Part shown: positions 12,501-55,893 of the stretch, in pieces | How positions within the stretch are numbered: the first letter of the stretch is position 1 | Layout: every line of letters starts with the position of its first letter | Origin: Oceanospirillaceae bacterium | GTDB taxonomy: Bacteria; Pseudomonadota; Gammaproteobacteria; Pseudomonadales; Balneatricaceae | NCBI GenBank assembly: GCA_002686055.1 | Contig: NYZU01000022.1 | Span: 19,793 to 83,792 of the forward strand | Direction: 5' to 3' | Length of the DNA stretch: 64,000 nucleotides | Translations under genes and position numbers: made by a program | The notes under the pieces: model-generated | What the model was told of the DNA's origin: nothing | Database searches by the model: none | What the model saw: the letters and a program-made list of their open reading frames with translations, nothing else

Positions 12501-13829
12501 CTAAGTAGGTAGTCGCAAGGTGACCTCTAAGCCGCCTTGGGGTCGATTACAGGCAGAAATGGAGCCGCCCTGACTGCGCATGGATTGCTCGGCAATGGCC
12601 ATCCCAATACCATAGCCCCCAGCCTGTTGGTTGCGACTTTCATCGACTCGGAAAAAGGGTTCAAACAGATTTGCCAATGCTGACTCTGGAACCCCAGGAC
12701 CATCGTCGGCAATTGCAATATCAACCCAACCCTTTGTACGTTGCACCTGAATATATACCTTGCCCTTGTCACCCGTATACCGTATGGCGTTACGGATAAT
12801 ATTTTCGAGAGCACGAGAGGTGGCTTCGGGATAACCTTGCAAGGTTAATGAAGGGGGTAAATCCAACTTAATTTTGTTTTCATTTTGTGCTTCATAGGTA
12901 GCATCATGAACCACAAGGCGAATAAGTTCGGCAATATCATACTCAGATGCTTCCGGCTGATTTTCACCCTGTTCCAGTCGTAACAAGGTCAAAACTTGGT
13001 CGATCAAGATACTCATGCGATCTATTTCACGCTCAATGCGTTCAATGTCACCTTGGTCTTTGTCTTCCAATTTGCGGGCTAATATTTCTAAGGCAATTTG
13101 CTGACGTGCCAAAGGTGTTCTGAGCTCGTGGGATATATCTCGAAACAAGCGTTGCTGATTGTTAAGCAGCAGGGAGGTACGCTCAGCCATATGGTTAATT
13201 GACTGACCAAGCTGACTTATTTCGTCTTTGCGTGAAAGTACTTTATCTTCCACTCGAGTATCAAACTTACCTCGGGCAAAGGCATTGGTTGTGCGCCTAA
13301 GACTAGCTAGTGGGGTGGTAATTCGCCAAGTAATAAAGGTGGTAAAGAGTGCCACAATAAGTAATGCCGTGGTAACTTGCAGGCCAGGCAGATGCTTTAG
13401 CCAACCCTGGTAGGAGTTATCGGTAAACACGCGGGCAATAAACACATATTTTTCACCACTGGTACTGGAAATACGATAGACCCGCAAACCACGTTTGGTG
13501 CGTTCAATAAAGCGATTAGGTGTTAACGGCAGAGCGAGAGATAACCAGTCTTTGGGCAGATTTACTTTACTAATGGGTCGATTTTGCTCGTCGAGCATAA
13601 AGGCCCTTATATTGTAGCGTTTTTCAATATTTTGGAGCTTTTTGGTTAGTGCTTGATGACCTTTCTGCTCAAAAATATCAGCTGCATCCATAGCCAAGGC
13701 AATAACTTGGTGAGATTCAACAGCCTGCCGGTTTTTGATAATGGTGCCGGTTAAGGCGGCAACTGCGGCCATGGTTATAATTACCGTAAGCCAAAAGAAG
13801 AGGAAGATTTTCCAATACAAACTACGCAT
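12501..13829 (-). CDS. cpxA: Sensor histidine kinase, CpxA-like
   Basis: N-terminal TM, HAMP, H-box FRDISHELRTPLARQQIALE, HATPase GYGIGMAIAEQ; paired with a CpxR-like regulator. Confidence 0.8.
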   Translation of the reverse strand: MRSLYWKIFLFFWLTVIITMAAVAALTGTIIKNRQAVESHQVIALAMDAADIFEQKGHQALTKKLQNIEKRYNIRAFMLDEQNRPISKVNLPKDWLSLALPLTPNRFIERTKRGLRVYRISSTSGEKYVFIARVFTDNSYQGWLKHLPGLQVTTALLIVALFTTFITWRITTPLASLRRTTNAFARGKFDTRVEDKVLSRKDEISQLGQSINHMAERTSLLLNNQQRLFRDISHELRTPLARQQIALEILARKLEDKDQGDIERIEREIDRMSILIDQVLTLLRLEQGENQPEASEYDIAELIRLVVHDATYEAQNENKIKLDLPPSLTLQGYPEATSRALENIIRNAIRYTGDKGKVYIQVQRTKGWVDIAIADDGPGVPESALANLFEPFFRVDESRNQQAGGYGIGMAIAEQSMRSQGGSISACNRPQGGLEVTLRLPT

Positions 13830-13855: not shown

Positions 13856-14563
13856 CTAGTTGGCAACATAGAGATAGCCAATGCCACGAACAGTTTTGAT
13901 GCGCGGTTTGCCATCAGCAAAAGGCCCCAGTTTACGGCGTAAGTTACTTAGGTGCATATCAATACTACGATCATATAAAGTCAGCTTACGACCCAATGCT
14001 GACTCAGTTAGTTCTTCTTTGCTGAGAACACTGCCGGCGTTGGCGAGCAGATTTTCTAACAAATTAAATTCGGTACTGGTTAACTCCAGAACTTCTGCAT
14101 CTAAGGTGGCTACTCTGGTGGCAGGATTAAGCTCAATATCATCAGCCTTAACAAGTCCGTTACTAGGGGAAGGCTTAATATCTTCTCGGTCCATATCTAC
14201 CCGTCTTAAAATAGCTTTTATGCGGGCAATAATTTCCCGCGGATTACAGGGCTTGGGTAGGTAGTCATCGGCCCCCATTTCAAAGCCAATAATGCGATCC
14301 ACTTCATCGCCTCGGGCGGTTAGCATCAAGACGGGGGTTTTTTTAGTGTTACGCAGTTGTTTAAGCACTTCTAGCCCATTTACTTTGGGCAACATAATAT
14401 CTAAAACGATGGCGTCGTAATCGTTTTGCAAAGCTTTTTCGATGCCTTCAGCTCCATCGAATGTACTCGTGACAGAGAAATTCTCTAGTTGCAGAAATTC
14501 CGTCAACAACTCATTGAGTTCTTTATCATCTTCAACCAGCAATATCTTGTTGCTTTTGCTCAT
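13856..14563 (-). CDS. cpxR: Response regulator, OmpR family, CpxR-like
   Basis: Receiver domain (DAIVLDIMLPKVNG, GADDYLPKP) and winged helix with LTSTEFNLLENLL, GRKLTLYDRSIDMHLSNLRRKLGP. Confidence 0.85.
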   Translation of the reverse strand: MSKSNKILLVEDDKELNELLTEFLQLENFSVTSTFDGAEGIEKALQNDYDAIVLDIMLPKVNGLEVLKQLRNTKKTPVLMLTARGDEVDRIIGFEMGADDYLPKPCNPREIIARIKAILRRVDMDREDIKPSPSNGLVKADDIELNPATRVATLDAEVLELTSTEFNLLENLLANAGSVLSKEELTESALGRKLTLYDRSIDMHLSNLRRKLGPFADGKPRIKTVRGIGYLYVAN

Positions 14564-14633: not shown

Positions 14634-14648
14634 TTTACGTTTTTTTAC
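14634..14648 (+). promoter_or_regulatory. Exact CpxR-type box between cpxR and the putative sRNA
   Basis: TTTAC-gtttt-TTTAC, the reverse complement of GTAAA-N5-GTAAA; 32 nt before a TATACT -10 hexamer. Confidence 0.7.
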
Positions 14649-14680
14649 GTCATCTTGACACACTCTTGCACTCGTATCCT

Positions 14681-14686
14681 TATACT
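14681..14686 (+). promoter_or_regulatory. Putative -10 element (TATACT) of the cpxR-divergent transcript
   Basis: TATACT; a TTGACA lies at 14655-14660 but with a non-ideal 20-bp spacing, compatible with activator dependence. Confidence 0.5.
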
Positions 14687-14692
14687 AGTAAG

Positions 14693-14848
14693 TCGATCGT
14701 ATTATATTGGCTGGTTCCATTAGATTGGTCAACAAAGTTGTCAAATAGAACTGCCATTAAATAGTTTGTTAGCAGGATTCAATAGTGGGCTATTACTGTA
14801 TTTTATCAGTTGGATGCCTTTTCGCGGGACTTGTTCCCGCTTTTTTTT
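14693..14848 (+). ncRNA. Putative Cpx-activated small RNA (~155 nt)
   Basis: Bounded by a promoter-like sequence and a strong terminator (GCGGGA-cttgt-TCCCGC plus T8) with a U-rich CCTTTTCG just upstream; no convincing ORF. Confidence 0.6.
14823..14848 (+). terminator. Strong intrinsic terminator of the putative sRNA
   Basis: CGCGGGACTTGTTCCCGC followed by TTTTTTTT. Confidence 0.85.
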
Positions 14849-14975: not shown

Positions 14976-15154
14976 GGACTCCCCACAGTTGCGTTTTCGG
15001 TAGTGGCCCTGAACCCGATGGGTTCAAGGTGGAAGAAGCTGTCTGGTAGAAGGCTTTCCGTTGCACGGACATGCGCAGAACCAGTGCGAGCTAATTCCTT
15101 GCTGGTAATATCGGCTCAAGGACGTAACCGAATGTCGCTAACCACAGGGAGTCT
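14976..15154 (-). ncRNA. ssrS: 6S RNA
   Basis: Minus strand has closing stem GACTCCC...GGGAGTC, conserved CCTTGAGCCGATATT and CCTTGAACCCATCGGGTTCA segments; TATAAT upstream (15162-15167); located downstream of zapA. Confidence 0.9.
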
Positions 15155-55219: not shown

Positions 55220-55234
55220 TTTACATCACTTTAC
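55220..55234 (+). promoter_or_regulatory. Exact CpxR-type box upstream of the CpxP/Spy-like gene
   Basis: TTTAC-atcac-TTTAC; 32 nt before TATAAT at 55267-55272, the same spacing as the cpxR-divergent site. Confidence 0.75.
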
Positions 55235-55266
55235 TAACATTAGACCCAACTTTGCATTGCTTTATT

Positions 55267-55272
55267 TATAAT
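55267..55272 (+). promoter_or_regulatory. Putative -10 element of the CpxP/Spy-like gene
   Basis: TATAAT, about 67 bp before the ATG. Confidence 0.6.
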
Positions 55273-55338
55273 GGCAAATATCAAGAAATATAGTTCTTGT
55301 TGTCACAAATAAACTAATAAAAATGTGGAGAAAGGGTG

Positions 55339-55848
55339 ATGAATAAGATCGTTAATCAGACATTTATTCTACTATCTGCATTGATTATTGCGAGCACAGT
55401 CTCAACTCACTCCATGGCTCATAATCATGGCGCCAAGTCCGATAAAGATAGTAGCTGTAGTCCAGCTGAAGAAAGCCAGAAAAGCAAACCAGCAAAACAT
55501 GCTGCGTTAAGTCAAAATGTTCTTAATGAGCGTATGCTTATGGTGTTGATCTACAGGCTAGATCTGACGGACGCCCAAGAAGAAGCCTTAAAAGATATTT
55601 TTGCCCAGCAGAAAACGCAGATTCAAGATCAAGCAGGCTTAGTTAATGCTATGTTAGATGAGTTGGTCAAGCTTGAACCTGGCAGTGATGTTTATAATCA
55701 ACAAATCGATTTGATTGCGCAAACGAGAATTGATGGCTGGGCCAATAATATGAAGGAAAGAGGCCATATGCATGCGGCTATTGTATCAATGTTAAATAGC
55801 AAACAGAGGGCTGACTTCAAGAAGTTTATTGCCGAAGCGAGACAATAA
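55339..55848 (+). CDS. Small exported Spy/CpxP-like (LTxxQ motif) periplasmic protein
   Basis: Signal peptide-like N-terminus, then LDLTDAQEEALKDIF and MLNSKQRADFKKFI, helical Spy/CpxP-like pattern. Confidence 0.65.
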   Translation: MNKIVNQTFILLSALIIASTVSTHSMAHNHGAKSDKDSSCSPAEESQKSKPAKHAALSQNVLNERMLMVLIYRLDLTDAQEEALKDIFAQQKTQIQDQAGLVNAMLDELVKLEPGSDVYNQQIDLIAQTRIDGWANNMKERGHMHAAIVSMLNSKQRADFKKFIAEARQ

Positions 55849-55860
55849 GTTGCTGAACAC

Positions 55861-55893
55861 AAAAAACCGCAGACGTTAGCTGCGGTTTTTTTT
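55861..55893. terminator. Strong terminator between the CpxP/Spy-like gene and pyk (bidirectional)
   Basis: AAAAAACCGCAG-acgttag-CTGCGGTTTTTTTT. Confidence 0.9.

Follow-up and report, generated by a model that had tools for sequence, protein, structure and literature searches.

Sequence evidence for a probable new stress-controlled small RNA gene beside cpxRA in an Oceanospirillaceae bacterium

A 64,000-nucleotide stretch of an Oceanospirillaceae genome (hereafter the window) probably carries, beside cpxRA, a new small RNA (sRNA) gene that is predicted to be under stress control. We think it fairly likely that this is a stand-alone, Cpx-activated non-coding RNA gene placed on an ancestral cpxP promoter, and the best reading of the locus is a new lineage-restricted sRNA that occupies the CpxQ position but is distinct from CpxQ. 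The case is built from sequence, namely the promoter architecture, a conserved terminator, conservation of the RNA body, the lack of an ORF and a distant cpxP, while transcription, Cpx control, Hfq dependence, target repression and the order of the rearrangement at this locus are what we infer from it.

An initial annotation of this DNA had proposed a stand-alone envelope-stress sRNA divergent from cpxR, and the CpxR box, -10 element, ORF-poor stretch and GC hairpin with eight T on which it drew are all present where it had placed them (Table 1). About 130 nt without a credible ORF separate TATACT from the GC hairpin, and GCCTTTTC lies directly 5' of the terminator, which faces the 3' end of the convergent 6S RNA gene with its hairpin and T8 run. 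Three elements had gone unmentioned: the second, degenerate CpxR box, the neighbouring 6S RNA gene and a cpxP-like gene further along the window. The window also encodes zapA upstream of 6S RNA.

Table 1. Positions of the predicted features at the cpxRA-6S RNA locus and at the cpxP-like locus of the window
Feature	Position	Strand	Description
cpxA, sensor kinase	12501..13829	-	best NCBIfam models CpxA, below the equivalog cut-off
cpxR, response regulator	13856..14563	-	PF00072 and PF00486; best NCBIfam model CpxR, score below the equivalog cut-off; divergent from RNA
predicted CpxR box 1	14634..14648	+	TTTACGTTTTTTTAC, exact TTTAC-N5-TTTAC; kept in 15/15 genus genomes
predicted second, degenerate CpxR box (box 2)	14655..14669	+	TTGACACACTCTTGC, TTGAC-N5-CTTGC over the -35 region; forward-specific
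-10 element	14681..14686	+	TATACT; position as CATACT in family cpxP promoters
predicted non-coding RNA	14693..14848	+	156 nt; start inferred from the -10 element; no credible ORF, no Rfam match
predicted hairpin 5' of terminator	14787..14819	+	GGGC...GCCT; from minimum-energy folds
intrinsic terminator	14824..14848	+	GCGGGA-cttgt-TCCCGC-T8; hairpin and T run kept in the five RNA-bearing genomes
6S RNA (ssrS)	14976..15153	-	RF00013, 76.7 bits against a gathering score of 46.4; convergent with RNA gene
tandem-box promoter of cpxP-like gene	boxes 55220-55255, -10 55267-55272	+	-10 TATAAT; pattern match
cpxP-like gene (LTXXQ protein)	55336..55848	+	PF07813, 25.7 bits against a cut-off of 24.3

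To place the promoter, the locus was compared with 40 cpxR loci belonging to other genera in the family. A cpxP/LTXXQ gene lies divergent from cpxR in nearly all of these, an arrangement that the initial annotation had cited from E. coli: 37 of the 40 have a divergent ORF with an LTxxQ-like motif, and PF07813 matched all ten divergent proteins checked against Pfam, seven of them over the cut-off. In two more loci, those of genomes G100 (above the cut-off) and G128 (below it), the divergent protein resembles PF07813. The typical cpxP promoter of the family reads TTTACCAAACTTTAC-N6-TAACCCAACTTAGC-N12-CATACT. At the window locus, two predicted CpxR boxes separated by 6 bp lie, together with a -10 element, divergent from cpxR, with the same TTTAC-N5-TTTAC, N6, degenerate second box (TTGACACACTCTTGC aligns with the second box of the family promoters) and -10 distance. 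The box and TATACT first noticed are therefore a cpxP-type promoter, but whereas its counterparts drive an LTXXQ protein gene, this one has no cpxP downstream and would drive only a short predicted RNA. Judged by this alignment, the TTGACA-like hexamer most likely belongs to the second CpxR site; the 20-nt spacer likewise makes an ordinary -35 element less likely. A sigma-54 promoter (TTGACAC...TTGC) was rejected on inspection, as the GG is absent and the spacing is one base short.

A few family loci depart from the common arrangement. In loci L060 and L083 (genus g7) the box sits beside cpxR with the start of cpxP some 350-960 bp off, and L083 has a second exact box immediately 5' of cpxP; the shared promoter may have been split independently here. 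Genome G015 (locus L086, genus g2) is the one locus of the 40 with no cpxP-like ORF divergent from cpxR: TTTACCTAACTTTAC is found upstream of cpxR, no cpxP-like ORF lies within 1.6 kb and a long ORF region occupies the space upstream of cpxR.

Within the genus, 15 genomes including that of the window (G000) were compared, and in all of them the 6S gene lies on the upstream side of cpxR and TTTAC-N5-TTTAC is present upstream of cpxR. Box 2, the -10 element and the terminator are kept as a unit in five genomes (G000, G003, G011, G005 and G014), all draft MAGs from one clade, in which box 1 is followed by N6-TTGACACAC-N2-TTGC, a -10 element (TATACT or TATATT in 5/5) and a GC hairpin with a T run. 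The remaining ten have box 1 only, then a short spacer and the 6S end. The RNA-bearing and RNA-less states are one change apart on a cpxR tree whose inner branches are weakly supported. Since the unit is conserved in four other species and absent from 10 of the 15 genus members, the predicted RNA gene is lineage-restricted. An exact-pattern scan of a named-genome collection, from which the window's own record was possibly excluded, returned the layout in four RNA-bearing species and in a single distant MAG, there 5' of a cpxP-like ORF.

This distribution divides the support for the proposed envelope-stress sRNA. The cpxP-type promoter, the short non-coding unit and the conserved terminator speak for it, but box 1 by itself is no evidence for an RNA, since genomes lacking the RNA still carry this box upstream of cpxR; its role is probably shared with cpxR autoregulation. 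The main rival explanation starts from the same observation, as box 1 is present in every genus genome, RNA-less ones included, and the terminator points at the 6S 3' end: the boxes would serve cpxR autoregulation, forward transcription would be left over from the cpxP promoter, and selection on the terminator would have served only to stop antisense transcription into 6S, leaving the RNA inert. We regard this as unlikely, although well short of negligible, given that the forward-only box 2 and -10 element are kept in five species and lost together with the terminator in ten.

The motifs were also set against chance expectations. Two exact GTAAA-N5-GTAAA boxes lie in the window where 0.24 are expected, and the tandem arrangement TTTAC-N5-TTTAC-N5-7-TNNAC-N5-YTTGC occurs twice against 0.00 expected, the second copy (55220-55255) lying 5' of the cpxP-like gene. 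Genome-wide, single boxes are hardly enriched (nine against seven for a reversed control), and with box 1 persisting without the RNA the box was discarded as sole evidence. Terminator-like hairpins are not above chance, with one in 2.2 kb against 2.2 expected. The feature is real through its positional conservation in relatives, not through its motifs alone.

The predicted RNA measures 156 nt in G000 and G003, and 60, 69 and 71 nt in G011, G005 and G014, respectively. Conservation of the body was compared with that of the flanks (the cpxR leader and the terminator-6S spacer) in tests that treat sites as independent and use regions picked by eye. For G005 and G014, the body as far as GCCTTT is identical at 39 of 45 positions (87%) against 82 of 153 (54%) in the flanks (p=3e-5), whereas for G000 and G003 the figures are 111 of 123 against 218 of 263 (p=0.04), so that conservation beyond the flanks is strong for the first pair and weak for the second. 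The strong conservation of the G005-G014 body argues against an inert by-product of a terminator that shields 6S; the poor conservation between short and long forms, which differ by some 85-90 nt, is in keeping with one. This extra segment (window 14700-14790) occurs only in the window genome and G003, and no second copy of it was found in the window's genome.

Minimum-energy folding gave a similar division. The short forms fold into a hairpin, an AGGC-ARGT-GCCT hairpin (the counterpart of that at 14787..14819 in the window) and the terminator, with z-scores of -1.9 to -3.1, while the long forms fold no better than shuffled sequences (z -0.6 and -1.4). In G014 the sequence of the terminator stem has been replaced and its pairing kept. 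A covariance model built from the three short RNAs (G011, G005 and G014) recovered the window RNA at its own position (27.7 bits, E=0.001), matching mainly on the 3' end, and had no other match in the searched cpxP loci or 118 family genomes. With stricter filters on the 118 genomes, the model matched only its three source genomes and missed the window and G003 copies (26-28 bits), so divergent copies may exist elsewhere. Rfam gave no match at gathering score in the RNA region (best, SorX, 17.9 bits against 46.6), in line with the initial view that the RNA was undescribed. Neither a complement search using the conserved 3' stretch nor duplex energies computed for cpxP, cpxR and the starts of 50 window genes yielded a convincing target, and no seed is shared across all five RNAs. 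The lack of a target is a further point for an inert RNA.

Some short reading frames do lie in or across the RNA region, and the transcript could in principle be an mRNA, short and Cpx-controlled, that encodes an unannotated small protein. The frames touching 14693-14848 in the window's ORF list all begin with TTG or GTG; they are 30-36 aa long, apart from a 91-aa frame whose start lies within cpxR on the opposite strand, and those near the 3' end of the RNA read across the terminator. No reading frame is conserved in the five-genome alignment of the region. A coding transcript is thus extremely improbable, and no ORF lends the region another identity. With its own predicted promoter, no ORF and an intrinsic terminator, the unit has the sequence features of a stand-alone sRNA gene.

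cpxP itself has not been lost from the genome. An intact cpxP-like gene for an LTXXQ protein of the CpxP/Spy type, oriented away from cpxR, lies 40.8 kb from it at a second locus with its own predicted CpxR boxes, in a unit (55220-55893, plus strand) that ends in its own terminator. The gene is present in 13 of the 15 genus genomes; in G000, G002, G004, G007, G010 and G012 it is on the same contig as cpxR, approximately 35-41 kb away and oriented away from it. Predicted CpxR boxes precede it in all five RNA-bearing genomes and none were recognised there in the other ten. This arrangement bears on the idea that the RNA is a true CpxQ remnant, left when an in-place deletion removed the cpxP ORF but spared its 3' UTR and terminator beside the promoter. 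The promoter and position are indeed those of cpxPQ, the short forms have a similar length and the terminator is terminal, but all five RNA-bearing genomes hold an intact cpxP-like gene elsewhere with its own, different terminator, and the matches of the RNA model are restricted as described above. We consider such a remnant very improbable.

Gene order suggests a relocation. Other genera of the family have a fau/ygfA-like gene after 6S, where the window genome has the cpxR junction, and in the sister genus g13 (G026, G099, G100 and G103) cpxR and 6S lie approximately 24-31 kb apart on one contig. Together with the distant cpxP, this makes it probable that a rearrangement in the genus ancestor split cpxP from cpxR and brought cpxR beside 6S. 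An inherited terminator was considered and set aside: no hairpin facing 6S was seen in the eight other-genus loci inspected, where the fau/ygfA-like gene adjoins 6S, so the terminator looks new.

For the stand-alone sRNA that we favour, the following course of events is proposed. A rearrangement in the genus ancestor would have parted the two genes cpxP and cpxR, with the DNA upstream of cpxR becoming fused to the 3' side of 6S. One clade would have kept the forward cpxP-type promoter, with its two CpxR boxes and -10 element, now yielding an RNA of 60-156 nt that ends at an intrinsic terminator. Binding of phosphorylated CpxR to both boxes under envelope stress would induce the RNA along with CpxP, the latter being made from the second tandem-box promoter some 40 kb away. 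The RNA would most probably use its U-rich 3' end to bind Hfq, a protein encoded by each of the 15 genus genomes, and pair with envelope-protein mRNAs, as CpxQ does in enterics. Tentatively, and with the odds close to balanced but not quite in its favour, we suggest that the sRNA was born by promoter orphaning: cut off from cpxP, the bare cpxR-side promoter would have gained a terminator and become an RNA-only arm of the Cpx response, such that CpxP and the sRNA, which share one mRNA in enterics, would here be separate genes, 40 kb from each other but under common regulation.

Among non-coding arms of the Cpx response CpxQ is the best known; it is tied to the cpxP mRNA and has been described for enterics. 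CpxR activates cpxP, which is commonly divergent from cpxRA, and in enterics the cpxP 3' UTR gives rise to the Hfq-dependent CpxQ, which represses envelope-protein mRNAs (PMC4817254, PMC9438474, PMC6737893, PMC12802237); this Enterobacteriales sRNA is cut from the cpxP mRNA by RNase E (PMC4817254, PMC9438474). The window RNA would resemble CpxQ in its expected CpxR control from a cpxP-type promoter divergent from cpxRA, in the length of its short relatives (approximately 60 nt), in its terminal intrinsic terminator and in the availability of Hfq. Unlike CpxQ, which originates from the 3' end of the cpxP mRNA, it is a predicted primary transcript whose promoter and terminator enclose no cpxP ORF, cpxP being 40.8 kb away, and no sequence relation between the two was found. 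No report of such a gene was found in the literature on Cpx sRNAs, of which our coverage was incomplete. If the proposal is true, the Cpx response can gain an RNA arm independently of the cpxP 3' UTR in a distant gammaproteobacterial lineage, and an sRNA birth can be followed with ancestral, RNA-bearing and RNA-less states all present among relatives. Stand-alone sRNAs regulated by Cpx are known from E. coli, namely cyaR, rprA, omrA and omrB (PMC6737893), with which the window RNA would share an independent non-coding gene and an expected Cpx response, but it differs from them in its genomic position, its lack of an Rfam match and its cpxP-type promoter with two boxes. On this reading it would act much as CpxQ and these sRNAs do, and we would class it as a new sRNA family restricted to one lineage, functionally of a known kind but unusually arranged.
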